Shown piece by piece: positions 8,986 through 56,651 of a stretch of 64,000 bases of DNA. The position numbers and the translations under genes are program-made. Each line of letters opens with the position of its first letter. The stretch's first letter is position 1. Location of the stretch: contig JARGNZ010000012.1 of assembly GCA_029209985.1 (NCBI GenBank), forward strand, positions 1-64,000, given 5' to 3'. The notes beneath the pieces are model-generated. The model did no database searches, was not told the origin of the DNA, and saw only the letters and a list, made by a program, of their open reading frames with translations. This DNA comes from Parvibaculaceae bacterium (GTDB lineage: Bacteria; Pseudomonadota; Alphaproteobacteria; Parvibaculales; Parvibaculaceae).

Positions 8986-11103
8986 ATGAAATCCAAGATG
9001 AGTTTTGCGCGGCCAGCATTAGCTGTGTCTGTGATGTTCGGGTCTGCGATGTGCGGATCGGCGATGTGCGGATCAATGGCACTGGCCCAAGAAGCCGGAA
9101 CGCAAGGGGCTGACGTACAGAAAGCTGACGCCGCCCAAACGGTACACGCGGCATCTGCGCCTGAGATGGTGAGGCTAGACGCCATCACCGTGTCTGCTGA
9201 AAAAACAGATCGTCTCCTTAAATATACAGCCTCCAGTGTAGTGGTAACGGACGAAGAGCAGCTCACCGAGCAGGGCATCACGTCTGGGAATGAACTGCTT
9301 GAGCGTATTCCAAACATTGTATCGGTTGAACCGGGGAACGATGCGCCAACGGTGCGCGGGCTAGATGGCACTGGCCCTGCGTCCGGCGCAAACGCCTTTT
9401 TTGCAGGCACACGCCCGCGCTTCAGCTATCAAGTGGATGGTCGCACCTTAGGGTTCAATGAAGCTGTGTTTCAAAACACCAGCGTGTGGGATGTGGAGCA
9501 AGTTGAAATCTATCGCGGTCCCCAAAGCACCCTGCAAGGGCGCAATGCGATTGCGGGAACCATGGCCATTAAAACGGCAGACCCGACGTTTGAGTGGGAG
9601 AGCAAAGCGCGCGCCATTGGCGGCGGGCAAAACACACGGGTTTTCTCTGGTGTCGTTTCTGGTCCACTGATTGAAGATGTGCTGGCATTCCGGGTGGCGG
9701 CTGACTATCAAAGTCATGAGTCTGATGTTGAATTTACAGCCTATCCCGAAGAGGCAGATCCGGGCCTTTATCGCAACACGACGTTACGGGGCAAGTTGCT
9801 CTTTACCCCAACACCGGATGTGCGTTCGTTACTCACCTTCTCTCATGTGACGGGTCGCTCTCCTCAAGCAGAATATGTGGGCGTGCCTTATTCGGACGGA
9901 AATGCGAAGTTCCCAGAGCAGCCGACATTCTTGTCGCGCAATGGCTCGATAATTTCGGACACGACATGGGACGTTTCTGACCTCCTATCGCTCCAAGCCT
10001 ATCTTGCTTATACAGATTTCCGCACCATCCGGCGCACTCCCGCCGGCACAGGCAACGTGGAAATTACCGGTGATGAAATCGTCTTTGAACCTCGAATTAA
10101 TGTAGGCAATACGGGAGATCAACTATCTGGTTTCCTCGCCGCCTATATTTTCCGCACCGACCAACATGAGACAATCGACTTTTTTGGCGGTGGCCACTAT
10201 GTCGATGAAACAGAAAACAACGCTCTTTATGGGGAGGCGACGTTCAACGCAACAGACGCGATGAGCATCACCCTCGGCGCACGGTATGAAGAGGAAGAAC
10301 GCATTCGCTATGGTGCCGCAGGTCCCTTGGCTTTGAACTTTAATGAAACCTACCGAGAGTTTTTACCGCGTGCGACGGTGACGTACGACCTCAACCCAGC
10401 ATGGACAATCGGCGCGACAGTGGGGCGCGGCTACAACGGCGGCGGCGCAGGCATCACCTTTGCCCCTCCTTTCACCGCCTATACCTACGACCCAGAATAC
10501 GTATGGAACTACGAAGGTTTTGCACGCGCTGAGCTGATGGGAGGCCGTCTCGAATTGACAGGGAACCTATTTTACAACGACTACACAGACCTTCAGATGC
10601 CATTCATCCTTGGGGTGAACTCGACGGTCATTCGCAATGCAGAAAAAGCAACCACCTACGGTTTTGAAGCTGGGGCGCGGTATCTGTTTGCAGAACGCTC
10701 AGAAGTTTACATCAATGCCGGTCTGCTCCAAACCAAAGTCGATCGGTACAATGACCCACTTATTGAAGGCAATGACTTGGCACACTCACCCGCGTTTACA
10801 ACCGACATTGGGTTTTCATGGGCGGTGGATGACAGCTGGGTGATTGCGGGCGATGCGCGCTTCACAGACGCATATTATTCAGATGCAGCAAACTCATCAG
10901 CGCGGGGGAAAATTGACCCCTACGTCGTGGCCAATGCGCAAGTGTCCTACAAAATTGGGGATGCCCGTTTGTTTGTGAATGCAACCAATCTGTTCGACAA
11001 CGATAGCGTTACCAACATTGTTCAAGGCACCACAGCAGCCGATGACTACGCAACGGTGATGCAACCGCGCTTGGTCACAGCCGGTATTGAATTTAATTTC
11101 TAA
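8986..11103 (+). CDS. TonB-dependent receptor, probable ferri-siderophore receptor
   Basis: About 705 aa. A Sec signal peptide runs to about residue 36 (ends MALAQ), and LDAITVSAEKT is a TonB-box-like start of the mature part. A plug domain follows (NELLERIPNIVSVEPG, TVRGLDG, VEIYRGPQSTLQGRNAIAG), then a 22-strand-type barrel ending in Phe (AGIEFNF). The open frame begins at 8932, but the ATG at 8986 is followed at once by the signal peptide and preceded by GAGGG. With the Fur box, AraC regulator and downstream PepSY protein, ferri-siderophore uptake is the likely role. The signal peptide contains a tandem 15-bp duplication (SAMCG twice). Confidence 0.9.
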   Translation: MKSKMSFARPALAVSVMFGSAMCGSAMCGSMALAQEAGTQGADVQKADAAQTVHAASAPEMVRLDAITVSAEKTDRLLKYTASSVVVTDEEQLTEQGITSGNELLERIPNIVSVEPGNDAPTVRGLDGTGPASGANAFFAGTRPRFSYQVDGRTLGFNEAVFQNTSVWDVEQVEIYRGPQSTLQGRNAIAGTMAIKTADPTFEWESKARAIGGGQNTRVFSGVVSGPLIEDVLAFRVAADYQSHESDVEFTAYPEEADPGLYRNTTLRGKLLFTPTPDVRSLLTFSHVTGRSPQAEYVGVPYSDGNAKFPEQPTFLSRNGSIISDTTWDVSDLLSLQAYLAYTDFRTIRRTPAGTGNVEITGDEIVFEPRINVGNTGDQLSGFLAAYIFRTDQHETIDFFGGGHYVDETENNALYGEATFNATDAMSITLGARYEEEERIRYGAAGPLALNFNETYREFLPRATVTYDLNPAWTIGATVGRGYNGGGAGITFAPPFTAYTYDPEYVWNYEGFARAELMGGRLELTGNLFYNDYTDLQMPFILGVNSTVIRNAEKATTYGFEAGARYLFAERSEVYINAGLLQTKVDRYNDPLIEGNDLAHSPAFTTDIGFSWAVDDSWVIAGDARFTDAYYSDAANSSARGKIDPYVVANAQVSYKIGDARLFVNATNLFDNDSVTNIVQGTTAADDYATVMQPRLVTAGIEFNF

Positions 11104-43042: not shown

Positions 43043-43077
43043 AAACAGGCCCGCACGAATTTCGCGCGGGCCTGTTT
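43043..43077. terminator. Bidirectional terminator between DmdC-type and MBL genes
   Basis: AAACAGGCCCGC (43043-43054) and GCGGGCCTGTTT (43066-43077) form a perfect 12-bp stem with an 11-nt loop; the arms end in T runs on both strands. Confidence 0.85.
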
Positions 43078-43092: not shown

Positions 43093-45054
43093 CTAGCGCA
43101 CAGAGGCAACTTCAGGGCGCGGCGTGACAATTGGAAAACGTCGATTGAACTGATCAAAGCAGCTTGCCATATCAGCAAAAGCCAAGGCGTCCCCTTCAAA
43201 AGTAAGCCGCCCTTGCGTAAGCAGATCTTCGGCTGGTTCTAATTGCATCATCAAAAGTTTGAAGTCCACGCTGGTCATCGTCAGGCTGGCTGTCGCATTG
43301 TCCCGGCTGCGTCCGGCAAAATGATACAGCACCCCATTTTTCAACGTGAGCAAATAGGTGGTGTCGAGGTCGGTGAAGTTGAGGTTAAACGCATAGTCGC
43401 GCTCCCCCGCCCGCAATCCATTGAGACGTACCGCCATAACCTGCAACAGGTTGTCCACTGGCAAGCCTTTGGCCATGCCCGCTGACACAACTGCGCCGGT
43501 ACTTTCAGGCAGGCCGTGGCGCAACTCATGTGCGCCGCACAGATAGAAGTTGCGCCATGGGCCAGACTCAGACTGGTATCCCAGTTGCTCCAAGGCATCG
43601 GCCTGCAAAGCTTTGGCGTCTTGGTTTTCAGGGTCTGACATGACCACATGGTTGACCACTTCTGCAACCCAGCGGAAATCTCCCGCGTCAAAAGACGCAC
43701 GGGCTTTTTCCAGAACGGATTGCGCCCCTCCCATAAACTCTACGTAACGTGCCCCAGCCGCTGACGGGGGGTGAGGGTGTAAGGTCGCGGGATTGCCATC
43801 AAAGTACCCAAGATATTTGACATAAACCGCCCGCGCATTGTGGCTGACCGTGCCGTAATAATCTCGGTTATAAAATTCATGGCCCAAGCTATCTGGGAGT
43901 TTGAGTTGTTCAGCAATTTCTTCTTTGTTGAATCCCAAATTAGCCAACCGCAAGGTTTGGTCATGAATGTATTTATATAGATCACGCTGTTTGGTGAGAT
44001 ATTCAACGGCAGCGTCTCTGCCCCAAATGGGCCAATGGTGGCTGGCAAATTGAACATCCATCTTGTCGCCAAATAGGTCGATAGATTCTTGGATTTGATG
44101 CGCCCACGCTAATGCATCACGCACTTGCGCACCGCGCGGGGTATAAACATTATGCAAATGGTGCGAGGTAATCTCAGACATGCACAGGGCTTTGAATTGC
44201 GGGAAATAGAAAACCATCTCCGCCGGTGCTTCTGTGCCATGGGTCATCTGAAATTCAACGTCCACCCCATCCAATGTGCGCGTTTCTCCTGTTGTCGTCA
44301 GGCTGTCATTCGGCACCGCAAACCCGGTTGACCCCATAGAGAGCACAGCCCCAAGCCCCGTGGTCACAAAACCGTCTGGGGCATGGGGGATGAGGTTGCC
44401 ATACATATAGGTGGCGCGCCTGCCCATGACATTCCCCGCCAGAACATTTTCACTGAGCGCCTCGTGCACAAAACCTTCTGGCGCCAAAACAGGCAAGGCC
44501 CCAGAATTAATATCTGCATGAGTGGCCACCCCCAAAATACCGCCGAAGTGATCGACGTGGGAATGGGTGATGATGATGGCGGTGACCGGACGCTCACCTA
44601 AATGTTTGTTGGCAAGATCAAGAGCCGCTTTTGACGACTCCGCCGACGTGAGGGGGTCAATGATGACCCAGCCTGTGTCTCCCTTAATGAAGGTCATGTT
44701 CGCAATGTCAAAAGAGCGAACCTGATATATGCCGGGGACAACCTCAAAAAGTCCATGATGCAGGGCGTTAAGCTGCGCCTGCCGCCAGAGGCTTGGGTTG
44801 GTTTCGGCTGGGGCTTCTTCTTTTAGAAAGGCAAGCTTCTCCAAACTCATGGTGACTTTGCCATCATTTTCGCGCCGAATAGAAATGTCATCGAGCGTGG
44901 CGATGAAACCACGCGCCGCATCTTCAAAGCTGCGCCGGTCCTCAAAGGGGAGTTCCTCCAAGACGGCGTTGTTCTTTTCAGTGGTCGCTTGTGTGGCAGG
45001 CTTCTTGGCGCGCAACGCCTCCGCCAAGGGTGTTGTCCCAGAATATGTCGTCAT
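43093..45054 (-). CDS. Alkylsulfatase-like metallo-beta-lactamase fold hydrolase (SdsA/YjcS type)
   Basis: A 653-aa protein with the three-part plan of SdsA1-type alkylsulfatases. The MBL domain has THSHVDHFGG (H164, H166, D168, H169), CMSEITSHHLHNVYTPRGA and ASHHWPIWG as zinc ligands. A dimerisation region of about 400-520 and a C-terminal SCP2-like lipid-binding domain follow. There is no signal peptide, so it would act in the cytoplasm, unlike secreted SdsA1. It is the last gene of the operon with the amidohydrolase and CobW GTPase (74-bp gap, GGGAGGG before the ATG). It should cleave a sulfate or similar ester, but the real substrate is unknown. Confidence 0.88.
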   Translation of the reverse strand: MTTYSGTTPLAEALRAKKPATQATTEKNNAVLEELPFEDRRSFEDAARGFIATLDDISIRRENDGKVTMSLEKLAFLKEEAPAETNPSLWRQAQLNALHHGLFEVVPGIYQVRSFDIANMTFIKGDTGWVIIDPLTSAESSKAALDLANKHLGERPVTAIIITHSHVDHFGGILGVATHADINSGALPVLAPEGFVHEALSENVLAGNVMGRRATYMYGNLIPHAPDGFVTTGLGAVLSMGSTGFAVPNDSLTTTGETRTLDGVDVEFQMTHGTEAPAEMVFYFPQFKALCMSEITSHHLHNVYTPRGAQVRDALAWAHQIQESIDLFGDKMDVQFASHHWPIWGRDAAVEYLTKQRDLYKYIHDQTLRLANLGFNKEEIAEQLKLPDSLGHEFYNRDYYGTVSHNARAVYVKYLGYFDGNPATLHPHPPSAAGARYVEFMGGAQSVLEKARASFDAGDFRWVAEVVNHVVMSDPENQDAKALQADALEQLGYQSESGPWRNFYLCGAHELRHGLPESTGAVVSAGMAKGLPVDNLLQVMAVRLNGLRAGERDYAFNLNFTDLDTTYLLTLKNGVLYHFAGRSRDNATASLTMTSVDFKLLMMQLEPAEDLLTQGRLTFEGDALAFADMASCFDQFNRRFPIVTPRPEVASVR

Positions 45055-45128
45055 AATGCCCTCCCAAAGGCTGCCCCGTTGCGGGGTGCTTAATTTGAGA
45101 AGAGGATAAGGGGATATGACGCGCGAGG

Positions 45129-46058
45129 CTATGCCTTGCAGCTATCCAACAGGTCATTTAGGGCAGAAAAATCAAAATCTGGGTCAGGGCTTAAAAAAAC
45201 CAAACCGGAAGAGCGCGCGGCGGCATCGCGTGATGCACTCTCAGTTGCTTCTGTAATTTCAACCCTACCTTGGCTAAACTGTAGCAAACATAAGGCATTG
45301 CGTTCGTCCGTAAACCACCCTTTGGCCCGCACAAGGCCGCTTGATGCTGTCGACAATATATCGCATATCATTTTTCTTGATAGTCTTTGGGTGGCCGGGT
45401 AATGCCAGCTGACATGCGTATGGTCGACCCATGATTCTTCCGTCGTGTGATCAGCGAAGTGCCACGCGGCTTCTAAAAGAGAGAGGAGAGTAATCGGCGC
45501 TTCGGTAGCGCGCACTTGCGGCGCAGAGGATAATGTTTTGATCCAATCACTGACCGGCTCAAAGGCTGATGGATCCAGAAGGTCTTGTTTGGTAAGCAAC
45601 AAGAGGTCCGCATGCTGAATTTGGTGGCGTACTAAATGTTTGACGAATTTGTCATTGGCTTGGGTGCGTACATTGACGCAGTCCACCAAGGTGACAACCG
45701 GCCCGGGCTGTAGCAGGGGATTGCCATGGGCATAGGCTTTGAGACGCGTGGGGTCGCTTACGCCACTGGCTTCCAAAACAATATGATCAAGCTCGGCATG
45801 ACGTGCCGCAAGCATATCGACGGCATCTCCAAGGGAGTCCGTGAGCTTGCAGCAGATACACCCATTGTTGAGGCTGATGACATCATCGTCCTCAGCCTCA
45901 ATAAGGGTGGCGTCAATATTGATGGCCCCAAAGTCATTGACCAATAAGCCAATACGCGGGGCATTGGGGTCGCTGAGCATTTGATTGATCAACGTGGTTT
46001 TACCAGCCCCTAAATAGCCGCCGATGATGGTGAAGGGAAGAGCGGGATGATTAGGCAT
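45129..46058 (-). CDS. CobW/COG0523-family GTPase, putative metallochaperone 1
   Basis: A 309-aa G3E P-loop GTPase. GGYLGAGKTT is Walker A, LNNGCICCKL supplies the C67-x-C69-C70 metal site, and LLTKQDLLD is the GTP base-recognition motif. A C-terminal CobW_C domain is about 215-309. COG0523 proteins deliver zinc or other metals to client enzymes. Its start lies inside the end of the upstream amidohydrolase gene (8-bp overlap), strongly suggesting that the metal-dependent amidohydrolase is its client. It shares module layout with the pair at 52771-55408. Confidence 0.88.
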   Translation of the reverse strand: MPNHPALPFTIIGGYLGAGKTTLINQMLSDPNAPRIGLLVNDFGAINIDATLIEAEDDDVISLNNGCICCKLTDSLGDAVDMLAARHAELDHIVLEASGVSDPTRLKAYAHGNPLLQPGPVVTLVDCVNVRTQANDKFVKHLVRHQIQHADLLLLTKQDLLDPSAFEPVSDWIKTLSSAPQVRATEAPITLLSLLEAAWHFADHTTEESWVDHTHVSWHYPATQRLSRKMICDILSTASSGLVRAKGWFTDERNALCLLQFSQGRVEITEATESASRDAAARSSGLVFLSPDPDFDFSALNDLLDSCKA

Positions 46059-47730
46059 TTTTTTTCACAATTGGAAAAACAGCGCCTTCAAAAATTGTTC
46101 CCCAAATAGGAATGTCTTTAAGTGCCATTGGGTCGATGTCATATGGGTTTTGTTCCAACACAACCATGTCGGCCTTTTTGCCGGCTCGTAAGCTGCCAAC
46201 CTCATGTTCAAGCCCCATAACATAAGCCGCTTCAATGGTGATTGCTTTGAGCGCATCCTCAACGCTTAGGCATTCAGTCGGGGCCATGACAGTGCCTTGC
46301 GATGTGACGCGATTAACCGCAACCCATGCGTTGTTCAGCGGCAGGGCGGGGGCCATTGTGTAATCTGAATGAAGAGCGGTTGGGACACCTTCGCGGATAC
46401 ATGTGCCCAAGCGCCCAATTTGGGACGCGCGTTCATAGCCCACGCCTGCCTCGGCATATTGATCGCCCAATTCATGCAAATAATAGACATTGGCGGAGAC
46501 GCAGCCCCCTAAGGCTTTCAGGCGGCGGACTTGTTCAGGGGTGGAGAGCCCAAAGTGCTCAATCGTGAAGCGATGGTCAAACCGGGGGCGTTCCCACTGC
46601 AGTTTTTCCAATACATCCAAAGCCAGCTCCAACCCCATGTCACCGGTGCAGTGCACATGGATGCGGTAGCCAGATTTCCAGTAAAGCTCTGCGGCTTCCT
46701 CAAAGCTTTCAGGCGGCATCAACCATTCACCGTGGTGCCCATCCAAATAACCCGGCTCGCCAAGTTGCATAAGTTGGGAAAAGAAAGCGCCATCGGTGAA
46801 CAGCTTAACGTGATTAGAAAACCGCAACCGGTGCGTATTGCGTTCGGGGAGGGCATCAATCAGTTCGAGGGTTTTTTGATGGCTTTTGTTGGTCGCTGAT
46901 AAACCCATCGCATTGGCGATCATTTGAATACGAAAAGGGGTTTGATCATTGTCATACATCAACTTGGCCCCGGCATATTCCATGTCGAGATCAAAAATGC
47001 CAACGGCCATATCGCCCAATGTTGTATGCCCGCCAAAGTGAGCGACTTCGCGCAGGCGGTTCAACCCATCCATGGCGCGTTCTGGGGCCATCAGGTAGGG
47101 GGTTAATTTGCTGGACGCTTTGTGAAGGCCCATCTCAAAGAAGTGCCCGTCGTCAAACTTAGCTTGCGGGTGATTGCCCAAGCTTTCGCGGGTGATTTCC
47201 ATCCACTCAAGCGCCTTGCTGTTGACGATAATTTCGTGAAAAGACCGGTGCCACAAAATGACCGGGCGGTCGCCAACCACTTCATCGATCATTGGCTTGG
47301 TAATGACCCCATGCCAATTGCGATGGTATCCCCATGTGAAAAGCGGGGCATCCGGGTCTTCCATATTATCGGAAAGCTCTTTCAAGCGTGCAAAAAAGGC
47401 GTCTTGGGTGGTGACAGGCTGCACAGTGCCCCAAGGCAAGCGCCATTCCATTGCGGTTAGAAATTCCATCTGCAAAATAACAGCCGCCATGCTGGGATGA
47501 AGGTGCGGGTCGATGAACCCCGGCATCAATATTTTATCTTCAAACTGGCGGTCAACCGTGTGGGCATAACGGTCTAACCAAGGCTTGAGTGTCTCTAAAG
47601 ATCCAACTTCCAGAACCAACCCGTCACGCACCGCAACCGCTGTTGCTTCCGGTAATGTGGTATCCATGGTGATGACCTTACGGGCGGTGAAAACTGTAAT
47701 CTCGGATGCGCCCGTGTTCTGAACTGTCAT
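46051..47730 (-). CDS. YtcJ-type amidohydrolase family 3 protein 1
   Basis: About 559 aa. GFIDPHLHPS (H76, H78) holds the first metal pair, HVKLFTDGAF the Lys that can be carbamylated, HVHCTGD and FTIEHFGL the further His ligands, and ALHSDYTM the catalytic Asp. The family includes N-substituted formamide deformylases and other amide or lactone hydrolases acting on small N-linked substrates. The frame extends to 47904, but the ATG at 47730 has GAGG upstream and the extension would cover the operator. It is the first gene of the operon with CobW 1 and the MBL protein, and is divergent from the cupin-XRE regulator. Confidence 0.88.
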   Translation of the reverse strand: MTVQNTGASEITVFTARKVITMDTTLPEATAVAVRDGLVLEVGSLETLKPWLDRYAHTVDRQFEDKILMPGFIDPHLHPSMAAVILQMEFLTAMEWRLPWGTVQPVTTQDAFFARLKELSDNMEDPDAPLFTWGYHRNWHGVITKPMIDEVVGDRPVILWHRSFHEIIVNSKALEWMEITRESLGNHPQAKFDDGHFFEMGLHKASSKLTPYLMAPERAMDGLNRLREVAHFGGHTTLGDMAVGIFDLDMEYAGAKLMYDNDQTPFRIQMIANAMGLSATNKSHQKTLELIDALPERNTHRLRFSNHVKLFTDGAFFSQLMQLGEPGYLDGHHGEWLMPPESFEEAAELYWKSGYRIHVHCTGDMGLELALDVLEKLQWERPRFDHRFTIEHFGLSTPEQVRRLKALGGCVSANVYYLHELGDQYAEAGVGYERASQIGRLGTCIREGVPTALHSDYTMAPALPLNNAWVAVNRVTSQGTVMAPTECLSVEDALKAITIEAAYVMGLEHEVGSLRAGKKADMVVLEQNPYDIDPMALKDIPIWGTIFEGAVFPIVKKNA

Positions 47731-47785
47731 ATCTGCTGCCTCTATGGATATATGGGTGTGAAAATGGTGCCCATTTTTACGATCT

Positions 47786-47812
47786 CGTGAAAAATACCTT
47801 GAAATTTTCACG
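47786..47812. promoter_or_regulatory. 27-bp inverted repeat operator A (shared motif)
   Basis: CGTGAAAA, an 11-bp spacer, and TTTTCACG lie between the divergent amidohydrolase 1 and XRE-cupin genes. The same arrangement (8+11+8, core TGAAAA...TTTTCA) occurs at 55473-55499 upstream of amidohydrolase 2. Further pieces in this gap are CTTGAAA/TTTCAAG (47798 and 47827) and AAAATGG/CCATTTT at about 47761. It probably binds the adjacent regulator. Confidence 0.7.
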
Positions 47813-47887
47813 CATGTACCGCAAATTTTCAAGAGTAGAAGTGAAAAGTCTCGCTCAATGGGAGTTTTTCTTGGAAAAGGGCGTTGT

Positions 47888-48547
47888 ATGGCTGTGAAAT
47901 CCACAAAAGCGGGTGAAACAAAAACGCCTTCGTCGTCTGCGCACGCGGCTTATCAGACCTTAGAGGGGCAAATTGATTCTGCCTTGGACGCCCAAATGCA
48001 GGTGGCCATTGGACGTGATATCCGGGCCCTGCGCCAAGGGCGGCAGGTAACCTTGAGCGAATTGGCGTTGAAGACAGGCCGCTCTGTTGGATATATGAGC
48101 CAACTAGAACGCGGTATCTCCAAAATCAGTCTCAATGATCTGCGCACCCTTTCCAAATTTTTTGAAGTACCCATCAGCTTTTTTCTCGATCACCACAACA
48201 CTTCCCCGCGCGATCAAGGGGTGGTGGTGCGCAAGGAAAACCGACGTTCAGTGGGGACCAGAGAAGACGGCATGAGCGAGGAGTTGCTGTCCCCGGATAT
48301 TGCCGGAAGCTATGAGCTGATGCTGACCCGCATTGAGCCGGGCGCAAGCCTAACGGACGAAGTGCACCGCCCGACCGAAGAAACCGGCTATCTCCTCAAC
48401 GGTGAATTAGATGTGTGGATTGACGGGACGCATTTTCATTTGCGCCAAGGCGACACCTTTCGCATCGATCATAAATCCTTCCGCTGGTCCAACCTTGGCA
48501 CCACAGTCACAGAAATTGTATGGGTGACGGCCCCTCCTGTTTATTAG
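47888..48547 (+). CDS. XRE-family regulator with C-terminal cupin (PuuR-like)
   Basis: About 219 aa. The HTH_3 domain (about 45-105) reads GRDIRALRQGRQVTLSELAL, GRSVGYMSQLERGISKISLN. A cupin_2 domain (about 140-215) has EVHRPTEETGYLLNGELDVW and LRQGDTFRIDHKSFRWSN. PuuR-type regulators sense amines or related catabolites and repress neighbouring catabolic genes. Start at 47888 follows GGAAAAGGG; the frame opens at 47858. It heads the operon with the oxidoreductase, dioxygenase and amidotransferase, and is divergent from the amidohydrolase 1 operon, so it probably controls both and itself through operator A. Confidence 0.9.
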   Translation: MAVKSTKAGETKTPSSSAHAAYQTLEGQIDSALDAQMQVAIGRDIRALRQGRQVTLSELALKTGRSVGYMSQLERGISKISLNDLRTLSKFFEVPISFFLDHHNTSPRDQGVVVRKENRRSVGTREDGMSEELLSPDIAGSYELMLTRIEPGASLTDEVHRPTEETGYLLNGELDVWIDGTHFHLRQGDTFRIDHKSFRWSNLGTTVTEIVWVTAPPVY

Positions 48548-48570
48548 ATTTAGAGTGAGTTTCGAGCAGC

Positions 48571-51051
48571 ATGCGTGACGAAAAAGACCTTCCCTCAAAA
48601 GCCCGTGTCGTGATCATTGGCGGCGGCGTTATCGGATGTTCACTCGCGTATCATTTAACCGAGCTTGGATGGCGCGACGTGGTGGTGTTGGAGCGCAAGC
48701 AACTGACCTGTGGCACCACATGGCATGCGGCTGGATTGATTGCGCAGTTGCGGGCCACGCGCAACATGACCCGCTTGGCAAAATATTCCGCTGATCTTTA
48801 TGGCCGTCTTGAGGCTGAAACAGGCATCGCGACGGGCTACCGTCAAAATGGATCCGTTTCTGTTGCCCTCTCGGCAGAACGTCTAGAAGAGTTTCAACGC
48901 AACGTCTCTATGGCACGGATATTTGATGTTGAAGCCCATATGCTGACCCCCGATGAATGTATGGAGAAGTACCCCCTCCTTAACCCCGAGGGTGTGACAG
49001 GGGGCGTATGGATTCCAGAAGATGGTCAAGGTGACCCAACCAATATCACCTATGCCTTAGCGAAGGGGGCGCGCAACAGAGGGGCGCAAGTTTTTGAAAA
49101 CACCAAAGTAACCGCGATCACCCAGAAGGCGGGCCGAGTGACCGGTGTTGTGACCGAACGCGGTGCCATTGAGGCGGACGTGGTGGTCAATTGTGCGGGC
49201 ATGTGGGCGCGCGATGTTGGCGAGATGGCGGGCGTGAACGTGCCTGTGCACGCCGCAGAGCATTTTTATGTCGTGACGGAAAACATGGACGTGCTGACGC
49301 GCGGGATGCCAACTCTACGTGTGCCCGATGAAGCTGCGTATTATAAAGAAGATGCAGGCAAAATTCTGCTTGGCGCGTTTGAACCGATTGCAAAGCCGTG
49401 GGGCATGGAAGGGATTGCAGAGAACTTCTGCTTTGATGAACTGCCCGCCGACATGGACCATTTTATGCCGGTGCTGGAAAAAGCCATCAACCGGATGCCC
49501 GCTTTGGAAACCACGGGCATTGCGACGTGGTTTAATGGGCCGGAAAGCTTTACCCCAGATGACCGTTATTTGCTCGGTGAGGCCCCTGAGGTAAAGAATT
49601 TTTACGTTGCAGCAGGCTTCAACTCTGTCGGCATTCAATCTGCGGGCGGGGCTGGCAAAGCCCTTGCCGAATGGATTGTCGCAGGCGAACCTCCCTTTGA
49701 TCTGTGGGATGTCGACATTCGCCGTATGCAACCTCACCAAAACACACGGCAATATCTCTATGAACGCACAGGCGAGACACTCGGCCTCCTCTATGCCGAC
49801 CACTTTCCTTACCGCCAATATGCATCAGCACGGGGCGGGCGCCGCACACCGTTCCATAGCCAGCTAGAAAAGCACGGAGCTTGCTTTGGGGAATATGCGG
49901 GCTGGGAACGCGCCAACTGGTTTGTGCCTAAAGACGCACAAGCAAATGGCAAAAAGCCCGCGTATGAATATTCATGGCAGCGCCAAAACTGGTTTGACTA
50001 TGCCCGCGAAGAGCATAGAGCCGTGCGGGAGACAGTCGGCCTGTTCGATCTCTCAACCTTTGCCAAGTTTCGGGTGGAAGGCCCAGACGCAGAAGCTGTT
50101 TTGCAGCGGGTGTGTGCCAATGATGTGGCGGTGGAAACGGGCAAGATCGTCTATACTCAGTGGCTCAACCATAAAGGGGGCATCGAGGCAGACCTCACCG
50201 TTACACGTCTTTCTGAGACAGCTTTTCTGGTAATCACCGCCCCGGCTGTGCATGTGCGCGATTTGACGTGGTTGCGCCGTTTGCTGCCCGAAGACGCCCG
50301 GTGTGTGGTAACAGATGTGACCTCTGGCGAAGCCGTGTTAGCCGTGATGGGACCACAGGCCCGCGCGCTCTTGCAAAGCCTAACCCGCGACGATCTATCC
50401 AATGAGGCATTTCCCTTTGGCTCGGCCCGCGAGATTGAAATAGGCCATACAAAAGTACGCGCTCACCGGGTGACTTATGTTGGTGAGCTTGGATGGGAGC
50501 TTTATATTTCCGCCGACTTCGCCCAGCATATTTTTGATCTGGTGTATCAAGCCGGACAGAGTTTTGGTGCGCGGCTGGCGGGTATGCATGTGTTGGACAG
50601 TTGCCGGATGGAAAAGGGCTATCGACACTTTGGGCATGACATCAGCGACGAAGACCATGTGCTTGAGGCAGGACTTGGCTTCGCGGTGAGCGTGGATAAA
50701 GCGCCCTCAAAATTTGGTCACTTCATCGGGAGAGACGCGGTGCTGCAGGTGAAGCAGGAGGGTATCAAGCGGCGTTTGCTGCAATTTAAGTTGGCGGTGC
50801 CAGAGCCGCTTCTCTTCCATAACGAGCCAATTTTATCTGATGGTGCCTTTGTGGGATACTTAACCTCGGGCAACTATGGCCACCACCTTGGCGCATCAAT
50901 GGGGATGGGCTATGTGCCGCGCGATGCGGAAGCCAAAGTTTCTGCATTGCTTGATAAAACATATGAAATTGAAGTGGCGGGTGAACGCATTCCTGCTATT
51001 GCATCACTCAAACCTTTTTATGACCCACAAAGCGCGCGTGTGCGCAGCTAA
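48571..51051 (+). CDS. Dimethylglycine/sarcosine dehydrogenase-like FAD oxidoreductase with GcvT domain
   Basis: An 826-aa fusion. The N-terminal DAO domain (about 12-370) has VVIIGGGVIGCSLAYHL and GTTWHAAGL; H52 matches the His that binds FAD covalently in dimethylglycine dehydrogenase. The FAD-binding C-terminal cap, GcvT domain (about 430-715) and GcvT_C barrel (about 725-815) follow. The enzyme class oxidatively demethylates N-methyl amino acids and passes the one-carbon unit to tetrahydrofolate bound in the GcvT part. It is encoded 23 bp after the XRE-cupin gene. Which N-methyl compound is used cannot be read from the sequence. Confidence 0.9.
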   Translation: MRDEKDLPSKARVVIIGGGVIGCSLAYHLTELGWRDVVVLERKQLTCGTTWHAAGLIAQLRATRNMTRLAKYSADLYGRLEAETGIATGYRQNGSVSVALSAERLEEFQRNVSMARIFDVEAHMLTPDECMEKYPLLNPEGVTGGVWIPEDGQGDPTNITYALAKGARNRGAQVFENTKVTAITQKAGRVTGVVTERGAIEADVVVNCAGMWARDVGEMAGVNVPVHAAEHFYVVTENMDVLTRGMPTLRVPDEAAYYKEDAGKILLGAFEPIAKPWGMEGIAENFCFDELPADMDHFMPVLEKAINRMPALETTGIATWFNGPESFTPDDRYLLGEAPEVKNFYVAAGFNSVGIQSAGGAGKALAEWIVAGEPPFDLWDVDIRRMQPHQNTRQYLYERTGETLGLLYADHFPYRQYASARGGRRTPFHSQLEKHGACFGEYAGWERANWFVPKDAQANGKKPAYEYSWQRQNWFDYAREEHRAVRETVGLFDLSTFAKFRVEGPDAEAVLQRVCANDVAVETGKIVYTQWLNHKGGIEADLTVTRLSETAFLVITAPAVHVRDLTWLRRLLPEDARCVVTDVTSGEAVLAVMGPQARALLQSLTRDDLSNEAFPFGSAREIEIGHTKVRAHRVTYVGELGWELYISADFAQHIFDLVYQAGQSFGARLAGMHVLDSCRMEKGYRHFGHDISDEDHVLEAGLGFAVSVDKAPSKFGHFIGRDAVLQVKQEGIKRRLLQFKLAVPEPLLFHNEPILSDGAFVGYLTSGNYGHHLGASMGMGYVPRDAEAKVSALLDKTYEIEVAGERIPAIASLKPFYDPQSARVRS

Positions 51052-51098
51052 TTTTCACCCGAACCAGAAGCGCATTCCAAATGCGCATGAGGATACAT

Positions 51099-51944
51099 AT
51101 GAATACTTCATTCGACATTATTCCGCTCACAGGGTCTTTAGGCGCTAAGGTTGTGGGCGTTGATTTGGCCAATCTCTCGAATGCTGATTTTGATAAAATA
51201 TGTGCAGCATTCTTCAAGCATTCTGTTTTGGTGTTCCCGGATCAAGATATTACATTGGATGATCAGGTTGATTTTGCCCGCCGTTTTGGCACGCTCGAAG
51301 TCCATCCTATTGTTAATGGGATGGAGGGCAAGCCCGAGGTCATTAAGATGCTCAAACCCGCTGGTGAATCCGCCAGCTTTGGCGTGGGCTGGCATACAGA
51401 TAATTCTTTTTTTGAAGAACCATCCATGGGATCGATTGTGCATGCGCAAACCATTCCGCCATACGGGGGAGACACACTTTTTGCCTCTCAATATGTCGCG
51501 TATGAGCGCTTGTCCGATGGCATGAAAGCCATGCTAGAGGGCATGAAAGCCATCCACACCGCGAAGGACGCCTATACGTCTGACACGGCACAGGAAAAAT
51601 ACGAGGGCAAAACCGCCATCACCTATCGCTGGTCGGATAGTGTTTTGAACGAAGTGCTGCACCCCGTTGTGCGCACCCATCCAGAGAATGGCCGCAAGGC
51701 GCTATATGTGAATCCGATGTTCACCACGCGTTTTGAAAACATGACCGAAGAAGAAAGCCGTCCTTTGCTGGAGTATCTCTTCACGCATTGCACGCGGCCT
51801 GAATTTAGTTGCCGCATTGGTTGGGAGCCGAAACAAGTGGCGATGTGGGACAATCGCTGTGTGATGCACTATGCAGTGGATGATTATAAAGACTTTGAAC
51901 GTATGCTCTATCGCGTAACGATCAATGGTGAGAAGCCCGTTTGA
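51099..51944 (+). CDS. TauD/TfdA-family Fe(II)/2-oxoglutarate dioxygenase
   Basis: About 281 aa with the jelly-roll dioxygenase motif: H99 and D101 (GWHTDNSF), H257 (NRCVMHYAVDD), and an Arg near 271 (FERMLYRVTI) for the 2-oxoglutarate carboxylate. The family hydroxylates taurine, alkylsulfates, 2,4-D and other small substrates, usually splitting a C-S, C-O or C-N bond. GAGGA precedes the ATG at 51099 better than the 51081 opening. It lies in the XRE-cupin operon, 47 bp after the dehydrogenase. Presence of an alkylsulfatase-like enzyme in the opposite operon makes a sulfur- or N-alkyl-containing substrate plausible. Confidence 0.9.
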   Translation: MNTSFDIIPLTGSLGAKVVGVDLANLSNADFDKICAAFFKHSVLVFPDQDITLDDQVDFARRFGTLEVHPIVNGMEGKPEVIKMLKPAGESASFGVGWHTDNSFFEEPSMGSIVHAQTIPPYGGDTLFASQYVAYERLSDGMKAMLEGMKAIHTAKDAYTSDTAQEKYEGKTAITYRWSDSVLNEVLHPVVRTHPENGRKALYVNPMFTTRFENMTEEESRPLLEYLFTHCTRPEFSCRIGWEPKQVAMWDNRCVMHYAVDDYKDFERMLYRVTINGEKPV

Positions 51945-51972
51945 TACCGGCGGATGGAATGAGTGAGGCGTA

Positions 51973-52812
51973 ATGTCTAAGCGGTTTTTGATTTTAGATG
52001 GATATGATGCGCCCGGCCGGGCTGCATTGGAGCAGGCCCATTGCACACTTGCAGGCTCGCTTTATCTCAACATGCTCACAGCCGCTTTGCCCGATGCTCA
52101 GGCCGATATTTTGCATCCGGCAGATGCGACAACCACAATGCCAAGCGGCGCAGGGCTGGGCGACTATGATGCCGTGCTGTGGACAGGGTCAAGCCTCACC
52201 ATCTATCACACAACCCCGCAAGTGACCCGGCAAGTAGAGCTGGCCCGTGCGGTCTATGAGGCAGGCGTGCCTAGTTTTGGCAGTTGTTGGGCATTGCAAA
52301 TGGCGTCATTGGCTGCTGGTGGGACATGTCGTCTCAATCCAAAGGGGCGCGAGTTCGGTATTGCCCGTAAAATCTCTTTAACCGATGCAGGAAAATCGCA
52401 CGCGCTCTATCGCGGCAAGCCAGCTTGTTTCGATGGCTTTACATCGCACTTTGATGATGTCGAAGCCTTGCCGCACGGCACCCCCGTTTTGGCGAGCAAC
52501 CGGGTGACGGATATTCAGGCGGCAGCGGTGGAAAAAAACGGCACATCTTTTTGGGCGGTACAATATCACCCAGAATATGATTTGAATGAAGTCGCGGGCC
52601 TGACCCGGTTCCGGGCTGAAGGGTTAATCAACGACGGCCATTTTGCAGATCAGGCGGCTCTCGATGTTTTTGTGGCAGAATTGGAAGCCCTGCAGGCCGA
52701 TCCAACACGTAGCGATATCGCGTGGAAATTGGGCATTGATCAAGATGTTCTTGATCCCGCCATGCGTCAACTAGAGTTCCGTAATTGGTTGGACGCTGTT
52801 ATTCTCGTCTGA
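51973..52812 (+). CDS. Class I glutamine amidotransferase-like protein
   Basis: A 279-aa protein with the class I GATase triad: C105 in FGSCWALQMA, H199 and E201 in VQYHPEYD. The synthetase part of GMP synthase is absent. Stand-alone members include gamma-glutamyl amide hydrolases such as PuuD, so it may remove a gamma-glutamyl group from an amine. It has a C-terminal extension of about 70 residues. It is last in the XRE-cupin operon, and its final 42 bp overlap the end of the converging CobW 2 gene. Confidence 0.88.
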   Translation: MSKRFLILDGYDAPGRAALEQAHCTLAGSLYLNMLTAALPDAQADILHPADATTTMPSGAGLGDYDAVLWTGSSLTIYHTTPQVTRQVELARAVYEAGVPSFGSCWALQMASLAAGGTCRLNPKGREFGIARKISLTDAGKSHALYRGKPACFDGFTSHFDDVEALPHGTPVLASNRVTDIQAAAVEKNGTSFWAVQYHPEYDLNEVAGLTRFRAEGLINDGHFADQAALDVFVAELEALQADPTRSDIAWKLGIDQDVLDPAMRQLEFRNWLDAVILV

Positions 52813-53727
52813 TCCTGCCGAAGAGACGCACCATTCAAATTGCGCTGTCAGATGGACATCTGTCGGAAATGGGGACACGCCAATAATCACCAATTCGCTT
52901 GCCGCACGTTCTGGGTTGGCTTTCAAAGGGCGGCAATCAAGACGGTTGCCTGCCAGTTGAATGCTATGGGCGCAGGCATCTCCTGCAAAATAAACAATGC
53001 CTTTGGCGCGGATCACTTCATTGGGGAGGGCTTCCAAAAAGCGCTGTAGCCGTTCCCTGTCCAGAGGTTCCCCGCTTTTTCCCTGCCACGTTGTAAAAGG
53101 CAAGGCGTGCGCATGGGCCGCTGCCGGAAGTGGTGTTTCCCCATGGGTGCCAAAAAGAAGGGGGAGGGGGAGAGAGGCCTGGACTGTTTCTACAATGCGG
53201 GTATCGGGTTTGTAACCGTGCAGAATATCGGCGCACTGCGCAGCTTGGCCAGGCTTGGCAAGGTCCATTTTGTTGAGCACAAAAAGGTCTGCAGCGTTGA
53301 TTTGGCGCTCAATCGTATCCGTAAGTCGAGGGTCGTTGTATTGCTCACAAAAAGCCCCCGCATCGGCCATAACAATGATGCCGTCGAGGCAGAGGTCTTT
53401 ATCAATCTGGGCAAAGTCGGCGAGGCGGGCAGGGTCTGCCACCCCGCTGGCCTCAATCACCACATGATCAAATTGATCTGCCTGCCGCGTAAGGTCGAGC
53501 AGGGTGCTGATAAAACTATCACCAATAGTGCAGCATACGCAGCCATTCGATAGGGTCATGGTTTGCCCATCGTGCTGGTCGATCAAACCCGCATCGATGT
53601 TGATAGAGCCAAAGTCATTGACCACCATGGCATAACGTCGCCGGTTAGGTGCCCGCAGCAAATGGTTGAGCAGGGTGGTTTTGCCGCTGCCCAAAAATCC
53701 ACTTAAAATGGTGACGGGTAATGCCAT
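52771..53727 (-). CDS. CobW/COG0523-family GTPase, putative metallochaperone 2
   Basis: A 318-aa paralogue of the GTPase at 45129. GFLGSGKTT is Walker A, SNGCVCCTIG carries C63-x-C65-C66, LNKMDLAK is the base-recognition motif, and the CobW_C domain ends near 290. Two His-rich spots (PAAAHAHALPF and the tail) could bind metal. It follows amidohydrolase 2 by 43 bp, the same order as the first pair. Its 3' end overlaps that of the convergent amidotransferase gene by 42 bp. Zinc delivery to the amidohydrolase is inferred. Confidence 0.88.
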   Translation of the reverse strand: MALPVTILSGFLGSGKTTLLNHLLRAPNRRRYAMVVNDFGSINIDAGLIDQHDGQTMTLSNGCVCCTIGDSFISTLLDLTRQADQFDHVVIEASGVADPARLADFAQIDKDLCLDGIIVMADAGAFCEQYNDPRLTDTIERQINAADLFVLNKMDLAKPGQAAQCADILHGYKPDTRIVETVQASLPLPLLFGTHGETPLPAAAHAHALPFTTWQGKSGEPLDRERLQRFLEALPNEVIRAKGIVYFAGDACAHSIQLAGNRLDCRPLKANPERAASELVIIGVSPFPTDVHLTAQFEWCVSSAGSDENNSVQPITEL

Positions 53728-53770
53728 GAAATTCTATCGGTCCATTGTGCTGGCTGGGTGTCAGAAAGCA

Positions 53771-55408
53771 TTAGTCTGCATTGGAAAAAATACGTCCACC
53801 AAGTACAGTGCCCCAGACACGTATGTCTTTAAGGCGCTCCGGTCCAAGCTCATAAGGGTCGTCTTCTAACACCGCAAAGTCGGCCCATTTGCCAACTTCA
53901 ATGCTCCCAACTTCTCCATCCATTTTGAGAGACCGCGCCGCCCCCATCGTAATCGTGTAAAGCGCTTCGTCGAGGTCTAAGGTTTCTTCGTCTCCCCCCA
54001 GCACACGGCCCGATGAGGTGGTGCGATTGATGGCGCACCAAGCGGTAAAGAGAGGATCAATAGGCGTGATGGGCGCGTCTGAGTGAATGGCAAGGGGCAC
54101 ACCGTTTTTCAACGCCGCCCCCGCATTGTCAATTTTATTGGCCCGGTCTGGCCCCAGAATAGTGGAATAGTGCAGGTCGCCCCAATAGTAGATGTGATTG
54201 GAGAACAGATTGACGCCAATGCCTAAATCCGCCATGCGATTAAATTGTGCTTCATCGGCCATTTGGCAATGTTGCAATGTGTGGCGGTGGTCGCCCCACG
54301 GGCTGCCGCGTAATACTTCTTCTAAGGCTTCAATCACGGCTTCCGTGGTTTCATTGCCGTTGGTGTGGATATGAAGTTGATGGCCTGCGTCGTGATAGGT
54401 TTTGATGGTGGGCACCAGCGCGGAAGGTTCAATGTACCAAAGGCCATTGGGGTTGCCGTTAAAGTAACCCGGCCATTTAAGGCGCGCGGTGAACCCTTGG
54501 ATTGACCCATCAGCCACTAATTTGACCAACCCAAAACGGGCTTTGTCTGTGCTGCTTTTCTGGGCGGCTTGTACCCGTGCTAGCCCTTCAGCCGGGGGCA
54601 AAAGAGTGCCGCCAAAAGCCGTTACCAAGCGGCACGGATAATCTGGTTTACTGGTTTCTGCCACATAACGGGCGACAGTTTGCTCGTTCAGGTCGCTGTG
54701 CAAATCCGTTACAGTGGTGACACCAGACAGACGGCAGAGGTTGGCAAAGTTACGGAGCGACTGAGAGGACGTGGAGGCCCCCATCATATCAAAGTCGATG
54801 CCTTTGGTTGCTAAATAGATGCCCACCATGCTGGCAAATTCACCGGTTGGCTCGCCGTGCTCATCCTTAAATACAACGTCCAAATTAATAGAGCGATCAA
54901 TTTCAGAGCGGCGCAAGACTTCGCTGTTGGTATTGAGCAGATGTAAGCTTGCGTGCAGCAGCACGATCGGCCGCGTTGTGGAGACACGGTCAAGGTCGCT
55001 GGCTTTGATCCGGGTGCCCCCAAAGAAGATCGGGTCAAAGCCCCAACCCACCAACGGGGTATTCGGATCGGGAAGGGCTGCATCCAGTTCTTTGAGTTTG
55101 TCGATCACCGCCTCTAAGTCGGTCAGCCCTGTATGCGTGGTGCCATCGGGACCTAAGCGATCATAAAAGCCGATATAGGCATGGTCCCAGAGGGCGCCTT
55201 CTAAAATGTGGCTGTGCCCTTCGATCATGCCGGGCATCAAGACTTTGTCGCTAAACTGGGTATCGAGCTGATAGTCACCCCATGCAGAAACTTCTTCCAA
55301 GGTGCCAACAGACAAGACCTTGCCATCCTTCACCGCGACATGCGTGGCAATGGGGCAAGAAGGGTCCATTGTGATGATGGAACGGGCGGCATAAACCGTT
55401 ACTGACAT
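53771..55408 (-). CDS. YtcJ-type amidohydrolase family 3 protein 2
   Basis: A 545-aa amidohydrolase. MIEGHSHILE holds the first metal pair (H65, H67), LVKLVADGSI the Lys, HIHTNGN and HRHTLQHC the other His ligands, and AIHSDAPI the catalytic Asp. It is clearly related to the 46051 protein, though the two have diverged. GGGAGAG precedes the ATG. Operator B lies 65 bp upstream. It forms a two-gene unit with CobW 2. A slightly different amide or imide substrate of the same pathway is a reasonable guess. Confidence 0.88.
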   Translation of the reverse strand: MSVTVYAARSIITMDPSCPIATHVAVKDGKVLSVGTLEEVSAWGDYQLDTQFSDKVLMPGMIEGHSHILEGALWDHAYIGFYDRLGPDGTTHTGLTDLEAVIDKLKELDAALPDPNTPLVGWGFDPIFFGGTRIKASDLDRVSTTRPIVLLHASLHLLNTNSEVLRRSEIDRSINLDVVFKDEHGEPTGEFASMVGIYLATKGIDFDMMGASTSSQSLRNFANLCRLSGVTTVTDLHSDLNEQTVARYVAETSKPDYPCRLVTAFGGTLLPPAEGLARVQAAQKSSTDKARFGLVKLVADGSIQGFTARLKWPGYFNGNPNGLWYIEPSALVPTIKTYHDAGHQLHIHTNGNETTEAVIEALEEVLRGSPWGDHRHTLQHCQMADEAQFNRMADLGIGVNLFSNHIYYWGDLHYSTILGPDRANKIDNAGAALKNGVPLAIHSDAPITPIDPLFTAWCAINRTTSSGRVLGGDEETLDLDEALYTITMGAARSLKMDGEVGSIEVGKWADFAVLEDDPYELGPERLKDIRVWGTVLGGRIFSNAD

Positions 55409-55472
55409 GGTGCTCTCCCTAAATGATGATGGGGGCAGAGTGCCATGAGGGGCAGGAGGGGTCGAGGGTATT

Positions 55473-55499
55473 TATGAAAAAATACTACATATTTTCATA
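55473..55499. promoter_or_regulatory. 27-bp inverted repeat operator B (shared motif)
   Basis: TATGAAAA, an 11-bp spacer, and TTTTCATA (extendable to TTATGAAAA...TTTTCATAA, 55472-55500) lie upstream of amidohydrolase 2. Arm length, spacing and core are the same as in operator A at 47786, and ATAC occurs in both spacers. Confidence 0.7.
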
Positions 55500-55512
55500 A
55501 GCAAAGGGCGGG

Positions 55513-55552
55513 TGTGATGCCCAACCGCTCTCACGAACGGCGGGGCATCACA
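55513..55552 (-). terminator. Terminator of the DUF2855 gene
   Basis: TGTGATGCCC (55513-55522) and GGGCATCACA (55543-55552) pair over 10 bp, with an inner CCG/CGG, just after the DUF2855 stop codon. It separates that gene from operator B. Confidence 0.65.
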
Positions 55553-55556
55553 TGTA

Positions 55557-56651
55557 TTATTTGTGGAGCGTGAAGATCATGCCTTGGTCTGGGCGTGCCT
55601 GACCTTCGACAATTTGCAGCCATGCCTCTCGAAGAGTATCGACGCCGCTCAAATTGTTGATGCTCAAACCGGTCTTGGCGACATCCAGAAAAGCTGCCCA
55701 TGCTTCTGCATAGCGTGCTTGAAAACCTGAGCCTCCCCATTCTTTCAGGCGTTTGCTGGCTTGGTCTGGGGCAAAGAAGACAGTGGGTTTTGGCCCGTCA
55801 AGGTCTGCCAACCAGCCTGATTGATCCCAATGCGAGCTGCCCACAATGCAATCATACGTCAGATTTTCACCAAAGTGATCGTGCACAGATTTGCGTTGCG
55901 CCGAGCTACCGGAAAAATCCACATAGAAGGATTTGGACGTGGCGTCCAGCTGGGTGATGTCGTCATAGCTTACAACTTGGTCGTAGCAACCGAGCGCTTT
56001 TACAAAATCAATATTGCCGGGGGAGGTCAGCCCCACCACTTTGCACGTCGCCCCATGGTTCTTTTTAAGCAGGAAGGCCATGCCGAACGCTGTTTTGCTG
56101 GAGGCGCTTGAAATCACAACCTGCTCACCGCCGAAGAAGCCATTGTCCGCAATGTAATCATCCAACAAAAAGGAGGTCATAAAGAGCGGGCGCAAAAGGG
56201 CTTGAAGGTCTTCTTGATCTTCACGGTAGCCTGCATCATTGCTGGTGCGGATATATTGGTTATAGACCGTATGCAATTTAAGGCGGTGGTCCATCTCGTC
56301 GATGAATTGGCTCGGTGTGATTTGACCCGGCTTAGCCACAAGGTGCGTGGTCATGGGATAGTAGCCGTAAAAGCGTTCGCCAACTTTTACCTCAGGGCAT
56401 TTTGAGGCGACGACATTTGCAAAGCCCCACACAGGTACATTGCCCCAACCCTCTTCAGCTGGAAAATACTGCCAATAGGAAAAACGGTCGCCAACAGCTG
56501 CGTAAGTTACATTATTGGCTGTGAGAGAAAACCGATCCAATGCAAAAAGGATCTCGCCGTCTTTGAGGTCCGCCTCACTCGGCACTGGACTTTCAATAAC
56601 ACGTGTTTCGGTGATGGCGTCTTTACGCACTTGTAGCTGTGTAATCGTCAT
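55557..56651 (-). CDS. DUF2855 family protein
   Basis: A 364-aa protein matching DUF2855: FALDRFSLTANNVTYAAVGD near the N-terminus, then VPVWGFANVVASKCPEV, YGYYPMTTHLV and VVISSASSKTAFGMAFLL. The fold looks like a distant quinone-reductase/MDR relative, but the usual glycine-rich nucleotide motif and the zinc ligands are missing. No activity is known to me. It is a single minus-strand gene between the amidohydrolase 2 unit and the ton operon; a link to the former is not shown. Confidence 0.82.
   Translation of the reverse strand: MTITQLQVRKDAITETRVIESPVPSEADLKDGEILFALDRFSLTANNVTYAAVGDRFSYWQYFPAEEGWGNVPVWGFANVVASKCPEVKVGERFYGYYPMTTHLVAKPGQITPSQFIDEMDHRLKLHTVYNQYIRTSNDAGYREDQEDLQALLRPLFMTSFLLDDYIADNGFFGGEQVVISSASSKTAFGMAFLLKKNHGATCKVVGLTSPGNIDFVKALGCYDQVVSYDDITQLDATSKSFYVDFSGSSAQRKSVHDHFGENLTYDCIVGSSHWDQSGWLADLDGPKPTVFFAPDQASKRLKEWGGSGFQARYAEAWAAFLDVAKTGLSINNLSGVDTLREAWLQIVEGQARPDQGMIFTLHK

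Follow-up and report, generated by a model that had tools for sequence, protein, structure and literature searches.

As far as XRE-cupin proteins have been characterized, most are repressors that act locally and on their own gene through palindromes (PMC7901475, PMC12724383), and these palindromes are 15-25 bp long and lie near the promoter (PMC7901475, PMC12724383, PMC10965056). A second family of importance here is COG0523, in which some subgroups are linked to Zur and others to cobalamin (PMC2770081). Genes of both families occur together in the window analyzed here, i.e. the stretch of 64,000 nucleotides at positions 1 to 64,000 of contig JARGNZ010000012.1 from a Parvibaculaceae bacterium (GCA_029209985.1). 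Our main reading of the locus, to which we assign a probability of about 0.78, is that a local XRE-cupin repressor would act through two operators on three transcription units for catabolism of an N-methylated amide or amine.

Genes and putative operators of the locus

The following features, given in window positions, have been used in the analysis.

43093..45054, minus strand: alkS, SdsA-type alkylsulfatase, 74 bp after cobW1
45129..46058, minus strand: cobW1, COG0523 GTPase, 8-bp overlap with the end of amh1
46051..47730, minus strand: amh1, YtcJ-type amidohydrolase 1 (AlphaFold model pLDDT 85)
47786..47812, no strand: operator 1, 27-bp inverted repeat CGTGAAAA-ATACCTTGAAA-TTTTCACG between the divergent genes amh1 and xre
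47826..47847, no strand: half-sites TTTTCA (47826) and TGAAAA (47842), part of a block that is also conserved in the sister species
47888..48547, plus strand: xre, XRE-cupin regulator (HTH_3 and Cupin_2), alternative start 47858
48571..51051, plus strand: dmg, FAD oxidoreductase-GcvT fusion, dimethylglycine-dehydrogenase-like
51081..51944, plus strand: tauD, TauD/TfdA 2-oxoglutarate dioxygenase
51973..52812, plus strand: gat, class-I glutamine amidotransferase-like hydrolase with Cys and His-x-Glu motifs present
52771..53727, minus strand: cobW2, COG0523 GTPase, next after amh2
53771..55408, minus strand: amh2, YtcJ-type amidohydrolase 2
55473..55499, no strand: operator 2, 27-bp inverted repeat TATGAAAA-AATACTACATA-TTTTCATA, 64 bp before amh2
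55557..56651, minus strand: DUF2855 gene, which in genus g3 is the ancestral partner of amh2-cobW2

The product of xre combines an N-terminal HTH_3 and a C-terminal Cupin_2 domain in one protein, both over the Pfam cut-offs, and a palindromic site is present in the promoter region of the gene itself; the protein is a probable autorepressor. An earlier interpretation made from the window's letters (the sequence-only reading) was right in calling it an XRE-cupin protein and wrong in calling it PuuR-like: PuuR is its best NCBIfam match, and the score of 52.8 bits against a cut-off of 211 rules out this identity. The genes xre, dmg, tauD, and gat follow each other with gaps of 23-29 bp. The start of amh1 is placed near 47730, and the listed GTG start at 47904 has been discounted because an overlap with the regulator gene would result.

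The same reading had found two YtcJ-type amidohydrolase genes, each with a CobW gene behind it on the same strand, and these gene calls agree with the domain search, in which both amidohydrolases are Amidohydro_3 proteins and both GTPases carry a cobW GTPase domain plus a CobW_C domain. The two modules had also been described as duplicated. Since amh1 and amh2 are only 33% identical and each has its own counterparts (64% identity in genome G005 and 42% elsewhere in g3 for amh1; 61-63% in other genomes for amh2), they are old paralogues that have been brought together, not the result of a recent duplication. The alkylsulfatase gene alkS is a candidate regulon member by position only; no hairpin stronger than those of shuffled sequences was found between cobW1 and alkS, and because no terminator is evident there, it stays a candidate. 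Beyond alkS, a near-perfect 17-bp hairpin (43043-43077, z about -5.5) lies between the alkylsulfatase and acyl-CoA dehydrogenase genes and is probably a bidirectional terminator of these two convergent genes.

In both operators the arms are complementary at 8/8 positions and an 11-bp spacer separates them, the core being TGAAAA-N11-TTTTCA. This confirms the identical geometry reported previously, and operator 1 lies, as had been stated, between amh1 and the XRE-cupin gene heading the FAD-GcvT, TauD, and amidotransferase genes. When the whole genome of 3,090,394 bp was scanned with this core, exactly two matches were obtained, i.e. operators 1 and 2, and the reversed-pattern control gave 0 matches in the same genome; at the level of sequence, operator identity and uniqueness are thereby established. 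For the wider pattern TGAAAA-N4..20-TTTTCA, 2 sites are present in the window vs 0.23 expected, and the chance that a second random site lands within 8 kb of the first is approximately 0.005. The source genome has 28 one-mismatch sites, and most of the 13 inspected lie within genes, one being a hairpin and a few intergenic; weak extra targets of the regulator may exist among them. One such site before an aldehyde dehydrogenase gene was considered as a target and rejected as part of a hairpin. An additional TTTTCA also precedes xre in g3, at a distance similar to that of the half-sites listed above.

Conservation of the putative operator with its regulator and predicted targets

A Rhodobiaceae MAG, the sister genome L012, keeps the gene order over the length of its 10-kb contig, and both sites are present. 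The arms before amh2 have changed from TATGAAAA/TTTTCATA to TGTGAAAA/TTTTCACA, i.e. by a compensatory change, and much of the DNA flanking operator 2 has diverged more than the site. Operator 1 is conserved in this genome and upstream of xre in g3, where five genomes keep only xre-dmg-tauD-gat together and the site precedes xre in all (5/5).

For a class-wide comparison, 31 relatives of the regulator (36-100% identity) were collected from more than 12 families of Alphaproteobacteria, including several named plasmid records, and sites with a spacer of 11 or 12 bp were searched within 260 bp upstream, the expectation being obtained from dinucleotide shuffles. An exact site was found upstream of 20/31 relatives vs 0.02 expected, and a site with at most one mismatch upstream of 27/31 vs 0.25 expected; because the relatives are non-independent samples, these counts are not strict probabilities. 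The 12-bp spacer is used in some lineages. Among 560 upstream regions of the same loci, each of the 16 exact matches belongs to the promoter region of xre, to the neighbour divergent from it, or to amh2 of the window. Exact sites away from xre in ten further genomes of the class are within coding genes, and in genus g4, which is without the regulator, most exact sites are in coding DNA. This class-wide co-conservation supports the assignment of the operator to the XRE-cupin regulator. A second exact site conserved in three genomes of family f109 was considered as a second target and rejected, because it falls within a coding gene, which from its translation we take to be IHF-beta. One relative (L083 in genome G366, 10127-10188) has a tandem pair of exact operators, 39 bp apart, ahead of xre, and these are the only two in its genome.

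The site also marks amidohydrolase genes that are not linked to the regulator. A gene-blind pattern scan of the family genomes detected it before a stand-alone amh1 far from xre in three genomes (G007, G008, and G009), and amh1 of G010 has a site with one mismatch. No site was found at amh1 of G004, one of the five g3 amh1 genes examined, nor at the amh1-cobW1 module of G005 (64%/38% identity), a genome for which the search gave no orthologue of the regulator. Two genomes of other families, G377 and G415, have a cluster of xre, amh1, and cobW (with dmg in G377), and the site lies between this cluster and a divergent Opp-type transporter. Outside the class, in the betaproteobacterium Cupriavidus sp. 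P-10, two amidohydrolase operons diverge from a region with a one-mismatch site, and one of them also holds XRE-cupin and CobW genes.

The situation of amh2 is different in g3, where its orthologues in seven genomes form a DUF2855-amh2-cobW2 operon with no operator. In the source genome, a strong hairpin (55506-55552, minus strand, z -5.9, with no clear T-run) directly follows DUF2855, and this hairpin and operator 2 stand between DUF2855 and amh2; the sister species has at this place a hairpin of different sequence and comparable stability. Because of this arrangement, amh2-cobW2 looks like a unit newly recruited to the regulon, and its control by the regulator would be genus-specific. The sequence-only reading had proposed one regulator for three units with nine genes and had expected the motif upstream of their orthologues. 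This expectation is borne out for the most part: it holds for xre and for most of the unlinked amh1 genes, and it fails for amh2 in the seven g3 genomes and for amh1 of G004. The observation itself is thus confirmed, and the interpretation has partial support, with its main point strengthened. Eight genes can reasonably be regarded as predicted regulon members, the ninth being alkS.

An alternative explanation confines the regulator to itself, dmg-tauD-gat, and the divergent amh1-cobW1, and attributes the site before amh2 to another regulator or to a chance palindrome. The g3 operon without any site and the mostly local action of published XRE-cupin regulators (PMC7901475) favour this explanation, which we nevertheless consider quite unlikely, since the genome has no exact site apart from operators 1 and 2, and the latter has been kept through a compensatory arm change despite diverged flanks and accompanies a hairpin that now separates DUF2855 from amh2. 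That the repeats are nothing more than hairpins of a terminator or attenuator, or palindromes arisen by chance in AT-rich DNA, is hardly credible. Any inverted repeat can form a hairpin, and AT-rich promoters raise the number of chance matches to a core motif that is itself AT-rich, but an 11-nt loop, a weak AT stem, and an upstream position fit a hairpin poorly, and the exact sites before xre, together with control upstream regions lacking the site, contradict both versions.

Pairing of amidohydrolase and CobW genes

A further rival explanation concerns the GTPases, which might serve zinc homeostasis in general (Zur-type) or be cobalamin-related, and in either case have nothing to do with the amidohydrolases. 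Such subgroups exist in COG0523, and the CobW proteins of the window match the CobW and ZigA models, both below the curated cut-offs (106.3 and 139.9 bits against the 332.1 bits of cobalamin-synthesis CobW, TIGR02475). We judge this explanation unlikely on the basis of gene pairing: cobW is located within 1.5 kb at 22/30 amidohydrolase loci sampled over the class, and CobW is present in 48/48 genomes having this amidohydrolase subfamily vs 175/337 without it (P about 4e-13, ignoring shared ancestry). Six of the seven g3 genomes have exactly one CobW, which adjoins amh2, the seventh has two, one for each amidohydrolase module, and two family genomes without amh1 and amh2 have none.

We therefore prefer to regard cobW1 and cobW2 as putative metallochaperones, and from their genetic linkage we infer that they deliver metal to the amidohydrolases. 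The C-x-C-C metal motif is found in both translations (NNGCICCKL and SNGCVCCTI), the G-x-x-G-x-G-K-T motif is visible as well, and the amidohydrolases have the H-x-H, the additional His, and the catalytic Asp metal residues of their superfamily, H76, H78, K309, H358, H360, H392, and D456 being invariant in alignment A2. The structures nearest to the AlphaFold model of amh1 are uncharacterised Pyrococcus hydrolases (3igh and 3icj), and structure therefore does not name the substrate. Three g3 amh1 proteins (L074-L076) with no adjacent cobW have a Cys/His-rich C-terminal extension, SHCCHDVDPCGH, which is perhaps an alternative means of metal handling.

Proposed model and comparison with known systems

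The dmg product has the full-length DAO-FAO_M-GcvT order, an E value of 1e-148 to mammalian DMGDH, and an aligned TWHAAG motif, and thus has the architecture of dimethylglycine dehydrogenase, i.e. an FAD oxidoreductase fused to folate-binding GcvT domains. The tauD product scores 269.5 bits, under the equivalog cut-off of 313 bits for taurine dioxygenase TauD (NF007104). The families of dmg, tauD, and gat are broad, and the substrate assignment is therefore loose. Companions of the regulator-dmg pair are an MttB-type methyltransferase in relative L080 (Pfam-tested), a betaine transporter with ETF, purU, and folD on an Agrobacterium plasmid, and amh1-cobW with a transporter in other relatives. 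Since the companions vary in this manner, the common element is folate-linked N-demethylation with variable feeders, and the cupin may sense an N-methylated amine or amide. Downstream of xre, four relatives (L080, L081, L086, and L088) have a pair of dmg paralogues plus an MttB-type methyltransferase (Pfam test for L080 alone), which suggests use of the same regulator for quaternary-amine demethylation. Homarine and N-methyltaurine pathways were considered as the identity of the cluster and set aside because literature searches gave no match, and a paper on marine trimethylamine regulation (PMC13390433) has no XRE-cupin.

In the model that we infer, an XRE-cupin dimer would bind TGAAAA-N11-TTTTCA directly at operators 1 and 2 and would repress rather than activate. 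From operator 1 it would silence amh1-cobW1 (perhaps also alkS) and the divergent unit xre-dmg-tauD-gat, the regulator therefore being autoregulated, and from operator 2 it would silence amh2-cobW2. The DNA would be released when the cupin binds a pathway metabolite, for which an N-methylated amine or the corresponding amide is the likeliest candidate. The derepressed amh1 and amh2 would hydrolyse the amide, cobW1 and cobW2 would load these hydrolases with metal, dmg would demethylate the resulting amine oxidatively, folate accepting the one-carbon unit, and tauD and gat would process the product. On the best reading of the comparative data, the dmg-like enzyme would be the common core, and the amidohydrolase with its COG0523 metallochaperone a feeder module.

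A broader proposal, which we put forward tentatively and at somewhat less than even odds, is that amidohydrolase-CobW is a general module of an enzyme with a dedicated metallochaperone and represents a new client class of COG0523. A single XRE-cupin regulator with a conserved TGAAAA-N11/12-TTTTCA operator would connect this module, in Alphaproteobacteria and in at least one betaproteobacterium, to an undescribed folate-linked N-demethylation of an N-methylated amide. A predicted regulator-operator pair for a widespread, uncharacterised catabolic module would provide a route to its inducer and thereby to its substrate, and a specific, testable client enzyme is named for COG0523 GTPases, the clients of which are mostly unknown.

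Comparison with known systems is as follows. No match to this operator and gene set was found in the literature searched, most subscription journals being outside its scope. COG0523/CobW metallochaperones (PMC2770081) share with the window proteins the cobW and CobW_C domains and the GTPase and C-x-C-C motifs, but the pairing with YtcJ-type amidohydrolases is a difference; amidohydrolases are unmentioned in that paper, and papers containing both CobW and amidohydrolase terms are, according to their titles and abstract openings, not on such pairing. Dimethylglycine dehydrogenase/oxidase (PDB 4p9s, 5l46, and 1pj5) has the domain order and TWHAAG motif of dmg, whereas dmg, whose activity is predicted, sits with TauD, amidotransferase, and amidohydrolases. 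E. coli PuuR is, like xre, an XRE-cupin protein, and its regulon includes an FAD oxidoreductase and a class-I amidotransferase-type hydrolase as the xre cluster does, but the latter is without a PuuA-like synthetase. Pseudomonas ErfA, PauR, PsdR, DbuR, and their relatives (PMC7901475, PMC10965056, PMC12724383) have the HTH and cupin domains of xre, a gene adjoining its targets, a palindromic promoter operator, and catabolic targets related to amines or amino acids. They differ from xre in their target genes and operators (TTAAGN5CTTAA for PsdR and a 20-bp AATTCT...AGAATT for DbuR), and a common LLSP signature between HTH and cupin distinguishes the relatives of xre. Local repressors of the XRE-cupin kind are already known, and what would be new here is the regulon itself.
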